Of a stretch of DNA of 64,000 nucleotides, positions 8,865 to 63,284 are shown piece by piece. Numbering within the stretch: the stretch's first letter is position 1; each line of letters starts with the position of its first letter. The notes under the pieces are model-generated. The model saw only the letters and a list, made by a program, of their open reading frames with translations, was not told the DNA's origin and did not search any database. The DNA is taken from the IMG/VR virus record IMGVR_UViG_3300044843_000488, positions 1-64,000 of that record; one strand, given 5' to 3'. The translations under genes were made by a program, and so were the position numbers. Source of the stretch: a virus.

Positions 8865-8962
8865 AGTTTCCCTAAAATGGGGTCACGTTGAGTGCAGGAG
8901 TGCCTGCACCGCAGTTTGAGCTTGACCAAGCAACGGGGGTCAGGCCGCTGTTGGGTTGACCC

Positions 8963-26135: not shown

Positions 26136-27751
26136 TAGCGCTGACCCCAGGTAATGCTGGCTTTACAGGAGTTAGACAGATTGTCGACGGATTTAGCAGC
26201 AATAATAAGTACATCCCCGGCTGTCCCGGATGCTGCGGTGGCTTCCCGAGTCAGATACTGACGGGCAAAGGCAAAAATTTCGGTGAGGTCGACCGTATCT
26301 GCTGACCCGTCGCCTGTAAAGAAACTAGCTAGTTGTTCGCCTCCCGTAAACGAAGTAATTGCGTTCGTAGCGCTTTCGGGGGAGTTGAACTCGATTGCTG
26401 AGAGGGTGCCAGTACTCGTAAACGCGGTTACCGGAGTCGAGGAGGCATCGCTCATCGTGGCCGGATTCTTAAACAGGGCAAACTGAGCTCTGGCTTCACT
26501 GCACATCGACAGCACCAGAGGGAACACCCTCATCAGGTTTCTTTTCGTCTGACCCTGATTATTGGTGATATTCTCTTTAATTCTCAGTGCGAGAAGTGGC
26601 TTGTACGAGGTCGTCCCGATGCTCGCCACTTTTGGACTATCCTTGCTGAAAATTGCAAGCTTGCTATAGTCGCCGCCATCAATGGAGATCTGGGCTCCGT
26701 ACTTGCGAATGTAGGAATTTGCCGACAGTGCACCAGTCTTCTCAATGCGGAACTGCATCGGAAGCGTTGGGTTCCCCAGCGACGGGTATGGGATTCTGTC
26801 TGAGCAGTTCAGATTGTGCGCAATGACCCAGCGGGAGGCTTTTACTGTTTCACCGCTAGGCAGGTTGGCATCGACAGGCACGTAAAACAACAGCCTTGAC
26901 CCGGTACCGCCATACCAGCCGTATTCAATACGGCACATCACCAGATTGGTCAGGCTGAGCTGGTGAGCCGATTTGGTATCAGCGGCACCCAGAATGGTCG
27001 TATTTGCACCGACCATCGTGTCGCCATTCCAAAAACGGCGCGGAACAATCTCTTCCATCACAGTGGGAGAGGTCGACACGAGTTGATAAACGGTGCCTCT
27101 ATCAGTACGGCTCGGTTGAGCGGTCATTACAGCCGCATCAACGGTAAAGGTGGTTGGGTCAGTACCTTGAGCCGTGTAGCCCTTCAGGTGGTCTTGTGGC
27201 CGCTCACCCGAGCTGGTCCGGCGCACGTAGTAGAGCTCGTCACCGACGATCCTCAGGAAATAGCCGTCCGTGCTGTCGAACATGCCAAACTCAATCTTGG
27301 CATTCGCGTCACGGCTCATGGCGACGCCAAAGGACGCCGAAGTAATGCGGCCGGTTTGGTACGGGAAGGCTTGCTTGGTGATCAAGCTAGCCAGCGCCCC
27401 ATTCGAAGCGGACGGGGTAACAAGCACTTCTGCTGCAGACTGCTGCAGAAGGTGATTGACCTGCGTTACCCGGCTTCCAGAGGCCGTTTGTTCATTCTTA
27501 GCCCAGATATTGGTGTCAATATCGAGCAGGTTAGTATCATCAAAAATTGCCAGGGGCGTTTGCACCCTTGGGATCCCCAGCAAGTCATCCCTGACTTGTG
27601 AAGGTGCAGACAAGTTGTCGAGGATTGGGATCGGACTCTGATCCGATGCCACCACCACAGGGAGGGAATTAGCCGAGGTCGCCTGACCAGCCGGAATAGG
27701 CGTTGTGCGACCTACTGTAATTACACTTACGCCTTCTTCAACGTCGGGCAT
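26135..27751 (-). CDS. Virion protein, paralogue of 23988-26135 (538 aa)
   Basis: N-terminus VEEGVSVITVGRTTPIPAGQ, then the LPVV...PIPILDN.SAP..V..DLLG.PRVQTP pattern shared with the neighbour, followed by WYGGTGSRLLFYVPVD, SRWVIAHNLNCSDRIP and RKYGAQISIDGGD. Probably a tail-tip structural protein; the pair suggests a tandem duplication with one copy extended. No cysteine or catalytic motif recognised. Confidence 0.65.
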   Translation of the reverse strand: MPDVEEGVSVITVGRTTPIPAGQATSANSLPVVVASDQSPIPILDNLSAPSQVRDDLLGIPRVQTPLAIFDDTNLLDIDTNIWAKNEQTASGSRVTQVNHLLQQSAAEVLVTPSASNGALASLITKQAFPYQTGRITSASFGVAMSRDANAKIEFGMFDSTDGYFLRIVGDELYYVRRTSSGERPQDHLKGYTAQGTDPTTFTVDAAVMTAQPSRTDRGTVYQLVSTSPTVMEEIVPRRFWNGDTMVGANTTILGAADTKSAHQLSLTNLVMCRIEYGWYGGTGSRLLFYVPVDANLPSGETVKASRWVIAHNLNCSDRIPYPSLGNPTLPMQFRIEKTGALSANSYIRKYGAQISIDGGDYSKLAIFSKDSPKVASIGTTSYKPLLALRIKENITNNQGQTKRNLMRVFPLVLSMCSEARAQFALFKNPATMSDASSTPVTAFTSTGTLSAIEFNSPESATNAITSFTGGEQLASFFTGDGSADTVDLTEIFAFARQYLTREATAASGTAGDVLIIAAKSVDNLSNSCKASITWGQR

Positions 27752-56998: not shown

Positions 56999-57349
56999 TT
57001 AGCTATGAGCTTCTATGAAGCAGTCAATGAAATCATTAACGTCAAAAGGTTTCTCGTGATGCTCGCTATACAAAGCAATTGAGTTCTCCAGTGCATCCTT
57101 AGAGCGCTTCAGCTTCGCTGCCTTTTCCGGGTAGTTATTGTCTAACTCGCATAAGCATGCGGTTAGGTCAGCGAGCATAATCCTTGCGTGATCTGTTGTG
57201 CTTGCGTTTAGCGGAACGATCAGGCTGAGTTTTATTGAACGACACCCTTCTGGATCCATTCCAAACTTGCGCATGAACTGCGCCAGCGGATCGTTGGCTA
57301 TGTCCTCGTCAGCAATGGTCACGAGGCACTCGTGCATTAGTTTTGTCAT
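56999..57349 (-). CDS. Hypothetical protein (116 aa)
   Basis: Start at ATG 57349, directly preceded by the CTCTCTCACC leader motif; the longer frame upstream is not needed. MTKLMHECLVTIADEDIAND then a helix-rich acidic protein (SIALYSEHHEKPFDVNDFID). Unrecognised. Possibly an early regulator or host-takeover protein. Confidence 0.6.
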   Translation of the reverse strand: MTKLMHECLVTIADEDIANDPLAQFMRKFGMDPEGCRSIKLSLIVPLNASTTDHARIMLADLTACLCELDNNYPEKAAKLKRSKDALENSIALYSEHHEKPFDVNDFIDCFIEAHS

Positions 57350-57567
57350 GGTGAGAGAGAGAGAGCTGGTTCGGTGCAAAAAATAAAAATGGTGGCTGGG
57401 CTTACGGCTGAGCTCTTGCATCCGGCCTGGAACGAGCATTACGCGGAATCACCGGATGTCCTCGACGGGACCCATTGGCTTCAGGGAGAGGCTTGCCGCC
57501 ATGTCTGGAAACACAGTGGTCCCCACCACCTGACCCGGGTAGTGGCAAGCATCACCAGGGAGAGCTA

Positions 57568-57587
57568 GGGGAGCATGCAAGCTCCCC
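57568..57587. repeat. Perfect 7-bp inverted repeat after the DUF932 gene
   Basis: GGGGAGC ATGCAA GCTCCCC, about 20 bases downstream (minus strand) of the DUF932 stop; no T-run follows on either strand. Could be a transcript 3' stem. Confidence 0.5.
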
Positions 57588-57607
57588 ATCCACCTGCCAG
57601 CTATCAA

Positions 57608-58747
57608 TCAGACGAGCTCCATGCAAGCCTCACGAGCGCGGCTGATGCGCTCAGCGCCCTGGCCACCCCACAGGGATTCCAGGCGTGTGCGTGCCCTCTC
57701 GATCTCGTCCTTGGACCGACCGGCGTCGTGGGTTTCGAACTGGCTGATGGCCTGGAACATGGCCCAGACGCTGCCGGGTTCAATGCCGAAACCGGTGTTG
57801 CCGCTGTAGTGGGAGCGGATGGTTGCGATCTGGGGCAGGTCTGAGAGCTTTCGCTCCCGCTTCACCTTCGTATCCTTGTCCGTAATAGGACGGGCGAGGA
57901 CGTCTGAATAGGTGCTTTCCAGGATGTGCCGTGCCATCTCCTCGTTCAGCTTCAGGGTGGTGAGGGGCTTTAGGGCTTCCAGGTCGCGGCTGAACTTCTG
58001 CTGCTCAAGATTGATCAGCGCGGGGAGGCTCTTGGCGAACTGCTCGACGCTCTTGGTGTGGCGCATCACCAGACCAGCATCGGCGTGCTGGGCTTTGCGG
58101 GCACCCTTGCCGCTCAGGTAGCGGAGCTGGTTGGCGCAGACCAGGCGGACGTCGCTGAAGAACACGCCAAAGGCGCTGGAGCCGTCGAAGCTGTTGAAGG
58201 CGTGGAGGTACCGGCGGACCTTGTCGCCTTCGGTGACCTCACCCTCGATGTTGCAGGAGGCGGTGACGAAGACCTTGCGCCCGTCGCGGATGCTGACGAT
58301 GTTGTCGATCTCGACGTCCTCGCGGAGGTACTCGAAGAGCTGGATCAGACTGTCGTTCTGGACAGGGGTGTAGCCCTTGCCCATGATGCCCAGCAGCGCT
58401 CCGGTGTCGCAGCGGGTGATGGCGCAGTGGTCCGGAGACTCATCCATCACCCGATCCAGGATGCTATCTGGCGTTGCAAAGAACACTGGGGTCTGAGCGA
58501 CGCGGAAGTCGGCGCCGGCCATCTGGAAGGCTTGGCGGGGGGTGGCGTCTTGAGGCACCACAGTGCCGCCTGCCTGGGCTGCCAGGGGGTTAACGCTGTA
58601 GCCCCGGTCCTGGAAACGACCAGGCTTGAGGAGCTGCTTCTCCCGGGCAAACTCTTGGGAGATGCTGTTGACGAGCTGGGTGCGGAACTGCATGTCCGAC
58701 ATGGACAGAGCTTCGGGGGTGTCGGCGTGAGTGGGGGTGATGGTCAT
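57608..58747 (-). CDS. DUF932 (TIGR03299-type) phage/plasmid protein (379 aa)
   Basis: The middle contains VQNDSLIQLFEYLREDVEID, DNIVSIRDGRKVFVTASCN, YLHAFNSFDGSSAFGVFFSD and RLVCANQLRYLSGKG, the DUF932 pattern. Proteins of this family are found on phages, plasmids and islands; a role in DNA or stress metabolism has been guessed but not shown. GC-rich relative to its neighbours. The leader (58748-58950) carries two CTCTCTCACC motifs and a set of hairpins. Confidence 0.88.
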   Translation of the reverse strand: MTITPTHADTPEALSMSDMQFRTQLVNSISQEFAREKQLLKPGRFQDRGYSVNPLAAQAGGTVVPQDATPRQAFQMAGADFRVAQTPVFFATPDSILDRVMDESPDHCAITRCDTGALLGIMGKGYTPVQNDSLIQLFEYLREDVEIDNIVSIRDGRKVFVTASCNIEGEVTEGDKVRRYLHAFNSFDGSSAFGVFFSDVRLVCANQLRYLSGKGARKAQHADAGLVMRHTKSVEQFAKSLPALINLEQQKFSRDLEALKPLTTLKLNEEMARHILESTYSDVLARPITDKDTKVKRERKLSDLPQIATIRSHYSGNTGFGIEPGSVWAMFQAISQFETHDAGRSKDEIERARTRLESLWGGQGAERISRAREACMELV

Positions 58748-58777
58748 GGTGAGAAAAGGGTTGGTGAGAGAGTCCAG

Positions 58778-58947
58778 GCGGCAGTGGTGCCGCTGTACAA
58801 ATCAGGATACGTGGCCTGTCCAAACAAAACCGGACAGATAAGCGATCCTGATGTGGTTGTGGTATTTTGATCCTGCACCACCCGTCCGCTTCGATGCGGG
58901 TGGATGGTGAGAGAGTCCCGCCCCGGTGTGAGAGCCGGGGCTTTTTT
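58778..58947 (+). ncRNA. Chain of hairpins ending in a terminator (candidate structured RNA)
   Basis: Within 170 bases: GCGGCA/TGCCGC (58778-58793), ATCAGGAT/ATCCTGAT enclosing CTGTCC/GGACAG (58801-58852), CCACCCG/CGGGTGG (58878-58903), then GCCCCGG/CCGGGGC plus T6 (58920-58947). The T-run polarity makes the + strand the likely transcript, opposite to the DUF932 mRNA, whose 5' leader this region also is. The hairpins would equally form in that leader. No promoter is proven. Confidence 0.4.
58920..58947 (+). terminator. Rho-independent terminator on the strand opposite to the genes
   Basis: Perfect 7-bp GC stem GCCCCGG/CCGGGGC, 8-base loop, then C and TTTTTT. No + strand protein gene lies upstream, which implies a + transcript such as an antisense RNA. 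Confidence 0.75.
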
Positions 58948-58950
58948 GTG

Positions 58951-59106
58951 TCAGGACGCTGCCGGCAGTCGGACCTCAAGGGTCTGGCCATCGTCACAGG
59001 GCACTGATAGGTCGGTGGTGCCGTCAGGCTTGGTCACGACCGTGATAATGCGGCCACCTGGCAGCTCAATGCGTGCCACCTGGCCAACGGGGATGTCGAG
59101 CCACAT
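58951..59106 (-). CDS. Very small hypothetical protein (51 aa)
   Basis: ATG at 59106: MWLDIPVGQVARIELPGGR, IITVVTKPDGTTDLSV, then TLEVRLPAAS. A beta-rich small protein, with a coding-like composition. Two bases downstream of the gene at 59109. Confidence 0.55.
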   Translation of the reverse strand: MWLDIPVGQVARIELPGGRIITVVTKPDGTTDLSVPCDDGQTLEVRLPAAS

Positions 59107-59108
59107 GC

Positions 59109-59306
59109 TCAGAACTCGTAGTAGAAGGCGCCCTCCCAGGTGTCAAAGGGAGGGCTGGTTTCGAGGCGGCGCATCTTGAGGGCCTCCCAGTAGGGGAAGC
59201 ACCTGCTGATCTCGCAGACCGTCTTGGTGGCCAAGGTGTCGGAGTCGAACACCAGGCCAGGGGTGGCACTGGCCCCGTTGCTGAAGCGCACTTTGCGGAA
59301 GGTCAT
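59109..59306 (-). CDS. Small hypothetical protein (65 aa)
   Basis: MTFRKVRFSNGASATPGLV then CEISRCFPYWEALKMRRLE and DTWEGAFYYEF. Beta-hairpin and aromatic-rich. Unrecognised; three bases after the previous gene's stop. Confidence 0.55.
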   Translation of the reverse strand: MTFRKVRFSNGASATPGLVFDSDTLATKTVCEISRCFPYWEALKMRRLETSPPFDTWEGAFYYEF

Positions 59307-59309
59307 AGC

Positions 59310-59537
59310 TCAGTGCACCGTGAAGTAGAGCCGATCCTGTTTGCGGACTTTGCCCCGCTGGATCAGCTTCTCCAGCAGGCCGTAGCTGAACCACTGCCTG
59401 GAGTCGTTGTACCCAATGGCTTTGCCTACATCGGCGTTGCGAACGCCACTTGGGTTGCAATCCAGGAAGTCAATGATGTGCCGCTCAAGGGTGTAGGAGT
59501 CGATGAGAGGCTCTGGGAAGGTGACGGGCTTGGTCAT
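59310..59537 (-). CDS. Winged-helix-like small protein (75 aa)
   Basis: MTKPVTFPEPLIDSYTLERH, IIDFLDCNPSGVRNADVGKAI, then QWFSYGLLEKLIQRGKVRKQ and DRLYFTVH: the helix-turn-helix then wing spacing of a small winged-helix. It could be an early transcription regulator. The CTCTCACC leader directly precedes its ATG. Confidence 0.6.
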   Translation of the reverse strand: MTKPVTFPEPLIDSYTLERHIIDFLDCNPSGVRNADVGKAIGYNDSRQWFSYGLLEKLIQRGKVRKQDRLYFTVH

Positions 59538-59571
59538 GGTGAGAGTTGTTGGTGAGAGAGGGGGAGGTGAG

Positions 59572-59605
59572 TCCCCAAGAGAGCCCCGGAGGGCTCCGTT
59601 GGGGA
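59572..59605. repeat. Nested inverted repeat between two early genes
   Basis: TCCCCAA/TTGGGGA enclosing GAGCCC/GGGCTC, 34 bases. Located after the RlpA-like gene's stop and before the CTCTCTCACC motif of the next gene. No T-run. Likely an RNA stem that separates messages. Confidence 0.5.
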
Positions 59606-59610
59606 TTCAG

Positions 59611-59955
59611 TTAGAAGCGCTGAATGGAGACCCGACCGATTCCGTCAGTCGGTACGCCAAGAGCTTTGGCGGCGGCGTAGGAAAGGTCGATGCCACAGGC
59701 ACACCTGTCGTTCACACGCACTGGGAGCTCTCGCCCTTTGTGGCGGATCAGGAGCTTCGTCCCGCAGGGATAGTGCGGGTGAGCTGCTGAGATCACAGAG
59801 TCCTGGTAAATATCACCGCAGGCTGTTCTGCGGCCGATGTACCAGGGGTGGTAGACAGTTGCCGTTGTGTGATCACCAGTGTGGTGAGCAAACGACGGGG
59901 TGGCTGACACCACTGCGAAAAGCGTCAGTGCGCAGTTACGAAGAAAAGTCATCAA
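59611..59955 (-). CDS. Secreted RlpA-like double-psi beta-barrel protein (114 aa)
   Basis: Signal peptide (about residues 1-23, MMTFLRNCALTLFAVVSATPSFA) then a domain with GRRTACGDIYQDSVISAAHP, CGTKLLIRHKGRELPVRVND and GIDLSYAAAKALGV, the RlpA/DPBB pattern (GT-V-V then VRVNDR and IDLS). RlpA proteins are lytic transglycosylases or septal hydrolases. Here three cysteines (CGD, CGTK, CACG) may form disulfides. Unusual in an early region; see findings. Confidence 0.8.
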   Translation of the reverse strand: MMTFLRNCALTLFAVVSATPSFAHHTGDHTTATVYHPWYIGRRTACGDIYQDSVISAAHPHYPCGTKLLIRHKGRELPVRVNDRCACGIDLSYAAAKALGVPTDGIGRVSIQRF

Positions 59956-60310
59956 TCAATTGCAGGGAACAAGCAACAGGACTCACAGGTGTACACAAGA
60001 GGGAATCGAAAGCGCGAGTCTGTTGATTGGGCGACGGCCGATTGATTCGGTCGTAGGAGCGGATAGGTGAGCGTCGGGTGGAATACCGATCTTCAATCTC
60101 CACTTCAATGCCCTGGGAAGCACACATTTCCAGAAAGAACGGGGCATCGCAGTCTTCTTCGAGATAGAGAGACTTGCCCTGTTCGTAGGAGTAGTCGGAA
60201 ATGCATGTAAGCGTTCCGACTACTTCTTCTACTATCTCTCGTTTGACAGATAGCCATGCGTGACCAGGGTCGTGGCGCATGATCAATTTGAGCTTTTTAG
60301 GTCTGTTCAT
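59936..60310 (-). CDS. Hypothetical protein (124 aa)
   Basis: MNRPKKLKLIMRHDPGHAWLSVKREIVEEVVGTLTC then an acidic patch (YLEEDCDAPFFLEMCAS) and a basic, probably disordered C-terminus. Its stop lies 19 bases inside the next gene (RlpA-like). Unrecognised; the N-terminal half looks globular. Confidence 0.6.
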   Translation of the reverse strand: MNRPKKLKLIMRHDPGHAWLSVKREIVEEVVGTLTCISDYSYEQGKSLYLEEDCDAPFFLEMCASQGIEVEIEDRYSTRRSPIRSYDRINRPSPNQQTRAFDSLLCTPVSPVACSLQLIDDFSS

Positions 60311-60555
60311 TCGGTTGGGTCGAAGTTCACAATGCGGTCAAGAGCGTCGAGGGCTTCCTCTAGCCACTCCTCAAAGGGGTGACCAAGAGCGTCCATCTGA
60401 TGACGCTCGGCGTCCTGGTATTGGATCTCAAGCAGTTCGCGATAGATCCGTTCGATCTGGGAAAGATGGCCCAGGCCGTAACGGTTCTCGCGAGCTCGCA
60501 TACGATTCAAAATCTCCAGGTTTTGATCGCGACGGGTTAGTTCGTGGAGTTTCAT
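60307..60555 (-). CDS. Small helical hypothetical protein (82 aa)
   Basis: Start at ATG 60555 (overlapping the previous stop), since MKLHELTRRDQNLEILNRM gives a typical helix start. Contains RIYRELLEIQYQDAERHQMD and FEEWLEEALDALDRIVNF. Unrecognised. Confidence 0.55.
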   Translation of the reverse strand: MKLHELTRRDQNLEILNRMRARENRYGLGHLSQIERIYRELLEIQYQDAERHQMDALGHPFEEWLEEALDALDRIVNFDPTE

Positions 60556-60728
60556 ACAGGAATGGGCCAGATGGCTTTTGGTTGAGCAACTCGAAGGATT
60601 TGCGTGCGAGTGGTCGGAGAATCTGTGACGAAGATCTGGCCAGTATTTGTGTCGGTAACGACAAAGAAACAGCGATTCGTAACAGTCGCGCATGTACGAG
60701 CGCGGAACTCAAGATCATCGAGAGACAT
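60552..60728 (-). CDS. Small hypothetical protein (58 aa)
   Basis: Start at ATG 60728 (MSLDDLEFRARTCATVTNR, CFFVVTDTNTGQIFVTDSPT). A beta-rich product. The imperfect leader ATCTCTCACC lies seven bases upstream. Overlaps the next gene by 4 bases. Confidence 0.5.
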   Translation of the reverse strand: MSLDDLEFRARTCATVTNRCFFVVTDTNTGQIFVTDSPTTRTQILRVAQPKAIWPIPV

Positions 60729-60870
60729 TGTTAGAGGTGAGAGATGGAGATGCGTGGGTCGAGAACAGCTCATCTGTGGAAGGCCACGGTGTAAAAGCGA
60801 GAACTGTTGTGCAGAAGATGATCACTGCACCCGTGAGAAGCCGCTCTGTGACTGAGGTTTGGGGAAACAT
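60715..60870 (-). CDS. Very small membrane protein (51 aa)
   Basis: ATG at 60870, two bases after the previous stop: MFPQTSVTERLLTGAVIIFCTTVLAF is a single membrane span or signal anchor, then a polar tail (TPWPSTDELFSTHA). Overlaps the next gene by 14 bases. Composition supports coding. Confidence 0.45.
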   Translation of the reverse strand: MFPQTSVTERLLTGAVIIFCTTVLAFTPWPSTDELFSTHASPSLTSNNVSR

Positions 60871-60872
60871 GC

Positions 60873-61280
60873 TCAATCCTCTTCGGCGGCCAGACCCGTA
60901 GCTTTGACAGTCAGATAGACAGATTCGCTGGCGGTAGCGATGCCATCTTCCTGCTCCTTGCGTTGTGCATGTTTGATGCGCTCTGCTTCACGACGCAGCT
61001 CATCGCTGTAGCGCCACACCTTTCGGCGGCAGATCACAACCTGTTTGTCATCCAGCTGGGCAGCCTGAATGTCACGGCTATCCATGTAGGTGAGCAGTTG
61101 AGCCTGCAGAGCTTTGATGTCGCTCTCCATCTGGCTGTACTGCCCTTTGAGATTTAAGTAGATCTGCAGCTGTCGCTCGTAGATCTCTTCATTCCAGGAT
61201 TCAGCAGTCATCTTGCGAGATGCAGTGGTTGAGAACTTGATGCGTTGTTTGGGGCGATTGCGAGTTGTTGAGATTGTCAT
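60873..61280 (-). CDS. Helical hypothetical protein (135 aa)
   Basis: A leader motif abuts the ATG (CTCTCTCACC at 61281-61290). Contains EIYERQLQIYLNLKGQYSQ, MESDIKALQAQLLTYMDSR, and an ordered alpha-rich part, then EDGIATASESVYLTVKATG. Coiled-coil-like; DNA binding is possible. Unrecognised. Confidence 0.6.
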   Translation of the reverse strand: MTISTTRNRPKQRIKFSTTASRKMTAESWNEEIYERQLQIYLNLKGQYSQMESDIKALQAQLLTYMDSRDIQAAQLDDKQVVICRRKVWRYSDELRREAERIKHAQRKEQEDGIATASESVYLTVKATGLAAEED

Positions 61281-61338
61281 GGTGAGAGAGTTGATGTGAC
61301 TGTCCGCGTGTGGGATGCGCGGCCCCCATAAATAGGAA

Positions 61339-61692
61339 TCAGCGGAGAGCCCAGGCGCGGCGCTCTGTGAGGACTACTTGCCTGGATGTGGTGAACTCGC
61401 TGTAGTCGTGGCGCCACACAAAGGTGTCGTGAATTGTGGGGACGTAGGCGAGCTGTTTGTGGTCCGGTGTGAGATCGAATAGGCCGGTCTCGACATCACC
61501 TTCTAGGAAGGCGTGCACATACTTCTTGCCCTCACGACGGGTGCGCTCCTGGCCATGTTTGTGAATGACAGGCTGCACGTTGTTTAAGGCAAGGAAGTTG
61601 GTATGAGTGCACAAACGCCAACCTTTGCCGGGCTCACGTTTGAGGACACTCCAGCACTTTTGGTGGAGGTTGAAATAAACACGCACTTTCAT
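61339..61692 (-). CDS. Hypothetical protein (117 aa)
   Basis: Contains RVYFNLHQKCWSVLKREPGKGWRL, VQPVIHKHGQERTRREGKKYVH and FVWRHDYSEFTTSRQVVLTE, a pattern like a small ssDNA/RNA-binding or nuclease-like phage protein of unknown function. Overlaps the upstream gene by 4 bases. Confidence 0.6.
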   Translation of the reverse strand: MKVRVYFNLHQKCWSVLKREPGKGWRLCTHTNFLALNNVQPVIHKHGQERTRREGKKYVHAFLEGDVETGLFDLTPDHKQLAYVPTIHDTFVWRHDYSEFTTSRQVVLTERRAWALR

Positions 61693-61922
61693 GGTTCGGT
61701 GATTGTGATGTTTGTGGTCTCACAGATAGGGAGTCCGGCCCAGTCAGGGTCGCCATGTTTCTTGACCCAACGACACCAGCGGCGGTTGTTGGATACAACA
61801 AACCAATCCGTATCTGTTTCTTGTTCAATCAGCACAACGGGCTCGTTGTTCATTGCATTGGCAAGTCGATTCCTCGCCTTTTTGCTTTGAGGAATTAACC
61901 AGAGCTGGTTTGTCATGTTCAT
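61689..61922 (-). CDS. Small hypothetical protein (77 aa)
   Basis: Start at ATG 61922 overlapping the previous stop (ATGA). MNMTNQLWLIPQSKKARNRL then DTDWFVVSNNRRWCRWVKKH. Trp-rich; possibly nucleic acid binding. Unrecognised. Confidence 0.55.
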   Translation of the reverse strand: MNMTNQLWLIPQSKKARNRLANAMNNEPVVLIEQETDTDWFVVSNNRRWCRWVKKHGDPDWAGLPICETTNITITEP

Positions 61923-62149
61923 TGGCCACATCCGTAGATTTCACGACGACGATCACGCAATCCATCACAGCAACCGTCATCTTCTGCGCTGCATTGCATA
62001 TACACAGAAGCGTGTCTGCGTTGCTTAAATGTCACATCACGCCACTGAGTGATGAAATTTTTGCGCCTGTAGATGTTGGCTTCGGTCTTTGCTTGTGCGA
62101 ATGTGTCAGCCGAGGCAACAACTTGTCCTTTGTAGTAAATGTCAAACAT
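61919..62149 (-). CDS. Small hypothetical protein (76 aa)
   Basis: MFDIYYKGQVVASADTFAQAKTEANIYRRKN then a second part with CSAEDDGCCDGLRDRR, cysteine and acidic-rich. May bind metal. Unrecognised. Confidence 0.55.
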   Translation of the reverse strand: MFDIYYKGQVVASADTFAQAKTEANIYRRKNFITQWRDVTFKQRRHASVYMQCSAEDDGCCDGLRDRRREIYGCGQ

Positions 62150-62324
62150 GATTGGCCTCCTTAATGTCTGCGTGGGTTAGTTCTTCTTCAGAGAGAATGT
62201 CTATGTAGCCGTGCGGATACACATTGCAGAAGTAATCAAGGTTGTGATCAGCTTCGGTATATGTGAAATAGACAGCGAGCTTTTCGTAGCCGTACGGCGT
62301 CACGTTGACGATGTAGTGTTCCAT
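62142..62324 (-). CDS. Small hypothetical protein (60 aa)
   Basis: Start at ATG 62324 with CTCTCTCACC at 62334-62343, nine bases upstream. MEHYIVNVTPYGYEKLAVYF then TEADHNLDYFCNVYPHGYID. Beta-rich; unrecognised. Confidence 0.55.
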   Translation of the reverse strand: MEHYIVNVTPYGYEKLAVYFTYTEADHNLDYFCNVYPHGYIDILSEEELTHADIKEANHV

Positions 62325-62365
62325 GGAAGATACGGTGAGAGAGCTTACAAGACCAGATAAGGACA

Positions 62366-63112
62366 TCAGGCGCCGGCAAAATGCTTGGCGCCTGTGCCAT
62401 GGGCCTCGACAAAGATGTCAGTCTTTGCGCCGTCGCAGAGAGCACACGTGCGGCACTGCGCAGAGGAATTGTCAATGGTGGCAGGGCATTGTTTGCCGCT
62501 GAATGCCTCAGAACCTTTGGGCACAACGGCAAACGTCTTCCAACCGTGCGCAGATGCGTCGAGATAATCTGCCAAACCGTCGCAGCTTGCCTGAAACACA
62601 CCTTTGCACCATTGAGCAAATGGCTGACGCCACTGGTGCGTGTAGCCGGTGTGACCAGCAGCAAAGATGTTAATGTCGCGAACAACATGCTCATCGAGGA
62701 TGCTGGGATCGCCATATGCACCCCAGCGAATCTTGCGATTGTTGAGATACATAGAAATGTTGATGCTGGCAGCTACTGCTGCATCGGTAAGGTCAACATA
62801 CCCACCAGCTTTGTAGGTTCGCCACACTGACAGCGGGGCCTGGCCGACGTTGACATAGCAGGAGCGCTTGCCGTTGGATTGCTTGCGGTGTATGCAGTTT
62901 CCGCATATTGTGTAGTCTTCGCCGAGCATGAGAGCATCGACTGGGTTGATGTCGTCACGCAGAATCCAGACCTGGCACATGTTGCCGGTCTTACGGTTGC
63001 CTGATTCGAGCGTCATAACGGCCACAAAAGGTTTGCCGTCGATAGGGGAATTGCCACGTTGAATGACAAAACCCAGGGGCTTTTTAAAGCCACGTGCTGA
63101 CTTGTTAGTCAT
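62366..63112 (-). CDS. Cys-cluster phage protein (248 aa), first early gene
   Basis: Start at ATG 63112, directly after CTCTCTCACC. Contains YTICGNCIHRKQSNGKRSCYVNVGQAPLS, then IRWGAYGDP, AAGHTGYTHQW and QCRTCALCDGAK. The two Cys groups (CxxC then C; CxxCxxC) suggest metal binding. Similar proteins occur in unrelated phages and are of unknown function. It begins the leftward early operon. Confidence 0.7.
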   Translation of the reverse strand: MTNKSARGFKKPLGFVIQRGNSPIDGKPFVAVMTLESGNRKTGNMCQVWILRDDINPVDALMLGEDYTICGNCIHRKQSNGKRSCYVNVGQAPLSVWRTYKAGGYVDLTDAAVAASINISMYLNNRKIRWGAYGDPSILDEHVVRDINIFAAGHTGYTHQWRQPFAQWCKGVFQASCDGLADYLDASAHGWKTFAVVPKGSEAFSGKQCPATIDNSSAQCRTCALCDGAKTDIFVEAHGTGAKHFAGA

Positions 63113-63173
63113 GGTGAGAGAGTTGCTGAATGCACAGCTTGAGAGGTGAGAGAGTGCCACAAAGTGTGGCAAT

Positions 63174-63284
63174 CACACAAGGTGGGAATTGAACCCACTT
63201 ACTGTGTGCAAATACGTTGCCTGTTGATATACACCGGGTCAGTATTTGCACAGAGCGCCGTTCTAGCTGTTAACTAGCTTGTGC
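63174..63284 (-). ncRNA. tRNA-like structure with long internal stem (tmRNA-like topology)
   Basis: Minus strand: acceptor-like GCACAAG (63284-63278) pairs with CTTGTGT (63181-63175); a perfect T arm GTGGG-TTCAATT-CCCAC (63198-63182); a D-like stem CTAG-TTAACAG-CTAG; and an 11-bp perfect stem TGTGCAAATAC/GTATTTGCACA (63252-63242 and 63215-63205) with a 26-base loop where an anticodon arm should be. No normal anticodon stem was found. It is directly upstream of the first early gene. A tRNA pseudogene or unusual regulatory RNA are alternatives. Confidence 0.45.

Follow-up and report, generated by a model that had tools for sequence, protein, structure and literature searches.

What reads a short sequence that is repeated, always in one orientation, before the genes of a viral gene cluster? 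The question is raised by the virus record IMGVR_UViG_3300044843_000488 (IMG/VR), 74307 bases long, of which bases 1-64000 were analyzed here as the window, and by the element CTCTCTCACC in the leaders of its leftward cluster at 57-63 kb. A sequence-only reading had taken this element for an initiation or regulatory signal of early mRNAs, with S1 or a phage protein as its possible reader. We propose instead that a phage-encoded, trans-acting small RNA (sRNA) recognizes the leaders of seven genes by base pairing and probably prevents their translation, a reading that rests on sequence comparison and to which we assign a probability of about 0.83.

The leader repeat and its distance from start codons

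Exact copies of CTCTCTCACC start at 57350, 58763, 58906, 59551, 61281, 62334, 63113, and 63145. All are on the minus strand and together they span 57350-63154. Shuffled sequences held a mean of 0.16 copies and a maximum of 2, which bears out the earlier count of eight copies in one orientation. No additional copy was found in the whole 74307-base record, including the 10 kb outside the window. In an unbiased search for 9-mers recurring upstream of start codons, TCTCTCACC was the top result.

Seven genes are tagged by the element. Three copies abut the ATG, namely, those at 57350-57359 (gene 56999-57349), 61281-61290 (gene 60873-61280; kept in the relatives that hold this gene), and 63113-63122 (gene 62366-63112). 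The remaining exact copies in leaders precede the ATG by 9 nucleotides (nt) (62334-62343; gene 62142-62324), 13 nt (59551-59560; gene 59310-59537), 15 nt (58763-58772; the DUF932 gene, 57608-58747), and 32 nt (63145-63154; the upstream one of two copies before gene 62366-63112, kept in relatives G006 and P2243). A copy with one mismatch, ATCTCTCACC, lies 7 nt before the ATG of gene 60552-60728 (60736-60745), and shorter copies abut two further ATGs, those of gene 59310-59537 (CTCTCACC, 59538-59545) and of the DUF932 gene (the degenerate TTTTCTCACC, 58748-58757). The proposed fixed place before start codons thus fits some of the copies only.

Five of the seven tagged genes begin with ATG-AC, in agreement with the earlier description. 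None of the seven has a Shine-Dalgarno (SD) sequence, as had also been noticed, but the contrast drawn with the rest of the genome is weak: an SD sequence was present in 5 of 17 sampled structural genes and lacking in 12, and most other sampled phage genes were without both the SD sequence and the leader motif. Most untagged genes in the cluster overlap a neighbor or follow it directly, and one has GGAGG. A hairpin precedes the site in many leaders, and some sites are several nucleotides before the start. The hairpins, together with TATCCT-like boxes found upstream of the DUF932 hairpin in close relatives, suggest that each tagged gene may be first in its own transcript.

A predicted small RNA and the matched change of its targets

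That every copy stands at or just before an ATG proved right for the gene leaders and wrong for the copy at 58906-58915, which no gene start follows. On the plus strand, positions 58863-58947 of this locus contain, in order, TATTTT, the hairpin CCACCCG...CGGGTGG, ATGGTGAGAGAGT, the hairpin GCCCCGG...CCGGGGC, and TTTTTT. This layout is that of a small bacterial regulatory RNA, and the copy at 58906 is the antisense image of a seed within the putative sRNA gene rather than a leader. The unit comprises a putative −10 box (TATTTT, 58863-58868, of the form T-A-n-n-n-T) and a predicted transcript of ~73 nt starting at about 58875 (58875-58947), antisense to the operon strand and situated in the gap upstream of the adjoining DUF932 gene (minus strand; a phage/plasmid-like member, PF06067, E value of 1.7e-23). 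The transcript would consist of a 5′ hairpin (CCACCCG...CGGGUGG, 58878-58903), the seed AUGGUGAGAGAGU (58904-58916), which complements ACUCUCUCACCAU exactly, and an intrinsic terminator (58920-58947) with an 8-bp GC-rich stem, a loop, and six T residues, which was called by the terminator scan. Because the gene-less copy sits within a unit of promoter-like box, hairpin, and terminator on the opposite strand, we favor a trans-acting sRNA as the reader of the repeat.

The middle part of the predicted sRNA exactly complements ACTCTCTCACCAT. Outside the sRNA locus, the seed region is perfectly complementary over 9-14 nt to the leaders of the seven genes, extending to 14 nt at 58763, 13 nt at 61281 and 63113, 12 nt at 57350, 11 nt at 63145 and 59551, 10 nt at 62334 and 59538, and 9 nt at 60736 and 58748. 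In the relatives covered by an unbiased scan, no intrinsic terminator ranked above that of the sRNA for complements near start codons. Two other readings of the locus were rejected: a protein encoded by the open reading frame 58904-59179, whose start is the ATG of the seed, is not conserved (the frame stops after eight codons in relative L065), and pairing through the terminator loop gave no convincing leaders in the phage's own genome.

Relatives were found via head protease proteins, DUF932 proteins, and DNA patterns, and 11 distinct homologues were aligned for structure. Both stems were kept by compensatory change, with 7 of 16 pairs altered on both sides (3 of 7 in the 5′ hairpin). Paired cells amounted to 98.3%, compared with 88.8% in shuffles, and covariation was 0.343 compared with 0.163 (0/500); sliding the stem partners abolished the pairing signal. 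Read on the plus strand, the alignment has G-U wobbles in six cells and A-C in none, while the opposite strand would give C-A mismatches at those six. The consensus energy was −29.4 for the plus strand and −25.6 for the other, and the single-sequence energy was lower in 10 of the 11. The plus-strand reading of the RNA is therefore favored. On the same side, the T-run after the terminator was kept in all 11, the terminator stem covaried, the −10 T-A-n-n-n-T was invariant (11/11), and its distance to the 5′ hairpin was nearly constant. A covariance model located the sRNA beside DUF932 in relatives with CTCTCTCACC or CTATCTCACC leaders and also in G310, and complete copies in these phages scored 92-108 bits. 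A pattern scan of genome contigs returned mostly chance matches from many phyla; contigs with a chance stem pattern but without the seed had no leaders.

The sequence-only reading had proposed looking for the motif in relatives, where it was found or was replaced by variants that match the relatives' own sRNA seed. Wherever leaders read CTCTCTCACC, the seed GGTGAGAGAG was unchanged. The seed of L272-L274 is GGTGAGATAG. CTATCTCACC stands in four leaders of L274 and in its sRNA locus, and L274 has no copy of CTCTCTCACC. Among the relatives, the seed GGTGAGAGAA is likewise matched by TTCTCTCACC leaders. For G310, which the covariance model located, the seed is GGTGAGAGAAGG and the leaders are CCTTCTCTCACC and CTTCTCTCACC. 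In a distant clade (L278-L280, L283, L290, L304, L305, and most of L307-L326), a terminator-bearing RNA of the opposite strand contains ACTCACAGCG and GTGGATGA; two different leader elements stand side by side in one locus there. Leaders on the same contigs contain CGCTGTGAGT, 5-8 nt ahead of the ATG, or TCATCCAC, and in every case lie on the strand opposite to the RNA. As the scan that found these contigs used the sRNA sequence only, their leaders are an independent result. The distant-clade RNA lies downstream of DUF932 where that gene is at hand and matches the leaders of several genes. CGCTGTGAGT was absent from the hits without the sRNA layout (L309, L314, L317, L320, and L321), and no more than a single stray TCATCCAC occurred there.

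When leaders and sRNAs were compared in a cross table, matches were strongest on or near the diagonal. The phage's own leaders matched its own sRNA seven times and the L274 sRNA 0 times, and the L274 leaders matched their own sRNA four times and others 0-1 times. The seed and its predicted leader targets thus co-vary across L274, G310, and the distant clade. This linked change supports the earlier view of the element as a dedicated regulatory signal in mRNA leaders; it tells against S1 or a phage protein as the reader, since the element is the complement of the predicted sRNA seed and changes with it in the relatives.

The RNAs also vary in form. The G310 sRNA (L303:7287-7395) is a longer one that contains CCUGAGAA three times, once in the terminator loop, and L308-type sRNAs also have CCUGAGAAA in the terminator loop. 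No leaders complementary to this CCUGAGAAA loop of the G310 and L308 types were found, and the CCTGAGAA loops of G310 were rejected as a pairing seed for want of convincing leaders.

The mechanism that we propose is as follows. A short regulatory RNA would be made from the plus strand at ~58875-58947, with its 5′ hairpin, central seed AUGGUGAGAGAGU, and intrinsic terminator. The seed would pair in trans with CUCUCUCACC elements in the seven gene leaders of the leftward cluster, probably making first contact through AGAGAG, as the seed's first half can pair with the RNA's own 5′ CACC. All leader sites fall in the last 45 nt or so before the start codon, and at those that abut the ATG the helix would take in the AU of AUG; the likeliest effect is therefore to keep ribosomes from loading. 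The seven genes would be switched off jointly, for example, when infection passes its early phase. The sequences themselves show the anatomy and conservation of the RNA gene, its complementarity to the leaders, and the joint change of seed and leaders; that the sRNA is transcribed is an inference, and the same holds for repression as the sign of its effect, for the timing, and for any chaperone.

Other readers of the repeat and the genome setting

The phage is likely a cyanosiphovirus, because its head protease is 41% identical to the head protease of Synechococcus phage S-CBS4 and its gene set (including lambda-like tail, portal, terminase, Prim-Pol, Thy1, and RusA genes) is of the siphovirus type; the host would then presumably be a cyanobacterium. 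Many cyanobacterial mRNAs initiate without an SD sequence. The repeat might accordingly be a pyrimidine-rich, ribosome-recruiting signal, S1-dependent or Kozak-like, in place of the SD sequence, as the seven genes without SD sequences and the copies abutting the ATG would allow; such a signal could even coexist with sRNA targeting. We regard this as improbable. The distance to the ATG ranges from 0 to 32 nt, most other sampled genes also lack an SD sequence yet are free of the motif, and neither the gene-less copy in a terminator-bearing antisense unit nor the matched variants of the relatives would be explained. The host does not use the motif either: TCTCTCACCATG occurred 17 times in 81 Cyanobiaceae genomes (4 times in the reversed control), compared with 3 occurrences of CTCTCTCACCATG in the 74-kb phage, so that a host-wide initiation leader was rejected. 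Of the "initiation or regulatory signal" first suggested, the regulatory part stands, and a general host initiation signal does not. About equally improbable is a protein site, either a DNA operator or the target of a translational regulator that binds RNA, for example, an analogue of RegA. Sites that recur in one orientation near starts and change in concert would fit a protein of shifting specificity, but the G-U wobbles favor an RNA from the opposite strand, and a protein would not need two leader elements placed next to each other at a locus with an opposite-strand terminator, as in the distant clade. Like a translation signal, a protein site also leaves unexplained the gene-less copy with its opposite-strand terminator and the distant clade's replacement of seed and leader as a pair.

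There is a marginally smaller chance still that the plus-strand unit is a mere cis-antisense RNA or the terminator of DUF932, with leader complementarity as a by-product of the shared repeat. The unit is indeed antisense and in the gap next to DUF932, and the antisense of one leader would complement all of them. Against this, the copy at 58906 leads no gene, yet the seed is invariant and co-varies with all the leaders, and the RNA of the distant clade, although downstream of DUF932, still matches the leaders of several genes. More plausible than any of these, though itself unlikely, is a variant that shares its probability with the trans-acting sRNA: pairing with the leaders would activate or stabilize the mRNAs or act by attenuation. 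The hairpins upstream of the site in many leaders and the sites several nucleotides before the start could be read in this way, but sites commonly overlap or abut the AUG, and pairing there would keep the ribosome out.

Several results weigh against the trans-acting sRNA itself. A clear −35 element was not found upstream of it, and a consensus promoter scan made no call. The first seed bases are predicted to pair with the sRNA's own 5′ CACC, leaving AGAGAG as the free toehold. Simple duplex energies in the phage's own genome separate leaders poorly from GC-rich chance sites, and these sites likewise made the noise too high in genome-wide duplexfold runs with flanks. The cross table contains off-diagonal matches among similar seeds (for example, five between the phage's own leaders and the G310 sRNA). 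Covariance-model scores in the distant clade are weak (20-22 bits) and the promoter there is unclear. Lastly, no annotated phage record or isolate carries the predicted sRNA. Other carriers were considered and rejected: 300 Cyanobiaceae genomes, scanned for a host copy, gave at most 30 bits against the 92-108 bits of complete phage copies, and the sister phage S-CBS4 has neither leaders nor sRNA, its terminators showing only scattered chance complements.

Further features were observed in this genome. Just upstream of the first tagged gene, a tRNA-like structured element (63160-63255, minus strand) has a GTGCAAATAC/GTATTTGCAC stem, the conserved loop CGGTGTATATCA, and a T-arm-like GTGGGTTCAATTCCCAC, with a compensatory GTAGG...CCTAC in G006 and CAGGTTCAAATCCTG in G004; neither ARAGORN nor Rfam called it. 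A stretch of about 1 kb upstream of the leftward cluster (63200-64270) is without a convincing gene. Beyond it, an HNH endonuclease (L004:4274-4765; genome 64274-64765, minus strand) has a C-terminal end that matches the CP12 domain (E value of 3.9e-6); CP12 is a regulator of cyanobacterial carbon fixation. Within the cluster, 61339-61692 (minus strand) encodes a homologue of mycobacteriophage L5 gp82 (PF25735, E value of 2.5e-23) in what is a cyanophage-like genome. A glutamine-II riboswitch (46.9 bits) lies at 8883-8945 on the plus strand of the phage, and an ARAGORN tRNA-Gln inside a tail-region open reading frame (26988-27066, minus strand), without Rfam support, is probably false.

Relation to known phage RNAs and start-associated repeats

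As a rule, a known phage antisense RNA acts on a single phage target. The c4 RNA of P1/P7 is a phage antisense RNA whose complementary sequences are likely in RNA loops (PMC12197685). The predicted sRNA resembles c4 and the CI RNA of P4 as a small, phage-encoded antisense RNA that would block the translation of phage genes, which CI RNA is known to do. Both c4 and CI act in immunity on a single leader and arise by cleavage of the target's own transcript, whereas the predicted sRNA would have a gene of its own on the opposite strand, with its own terminator, and at least seven targets. A scan of the window and the sRNA locus gave no C4 match, and no Rfam family passed the threshold at the sRNA. 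The sar RNA of P22 and the OOP and aQ RNAs of lambda are likewise short antisense RNAs controlling phage genes (PMC12197685), with essentially one target each, in contrast to one RNA for many scattered leaders here. VpdS of phage VP882 and PreS of lambda are trans-acting, Hfq-bound RNAs with host mRNA targets, in the case of VpdS also phage targets (PMC12197685); identical repeated target tags have not been described for these otherwise similar trans-acting phage sRNAs. CfrI of cyanophage S-PM2, a cis-antisense RNA of about 225 nt linked to psbA, has no trans targets (PMC12197685), and so shares with the present RNA its antisense nature in a cyanophage but not its predicted reach. In the literature searched, with most subscription papers outside its coverage, no phage sRNA with repeated self-targets was found.

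Should the proposal be correct, a single predicted RNA would control at least seven leaders, and numerous uncultured cyanophages would share this arrangement. It is possible, at somewhat less than even odds, that this sRNA family is a posttranscriptional master switch of cyanophages, with one RNA for many identical tags and with seed/tag pairs that co-evolve and are mutually incompatible between lineages. The result would be an RNA-based, lineage-specific regulon, and close relatives might then interfere with each other in one cell. The natural seed and leader variants amount to a ready-made compensatory-mutation experiment, and their linked change would provide a series from nature in which the recoding of an RNA regulon can be followed.

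The closest parallel on the side of the targets is the start-associated sequence (SAS/ESAS) of cluster K mycobacteriophages. This short repeat stands in one orientation before many siphovirus gene starts, often with an inverted repeat upstream, and is conserved across relatives; whether it is read by an RNA or a protein, of host or phage origin, was left open (PMC3203893). The likeness is one of arrangement, a short, oriented, start-associated repeat conserved in relatives. The SAS consensus GGGATAGGAGCCC (≤2 mismatches before starts) gave one chance-level match in the window, with 1.2 expected. We know of no complementary phage RNA for SAS. With the terminator-bearing RNA predicted here and its complementary seed, the reader of an SAS-type leader repeat, open since 2011, becomes testable.

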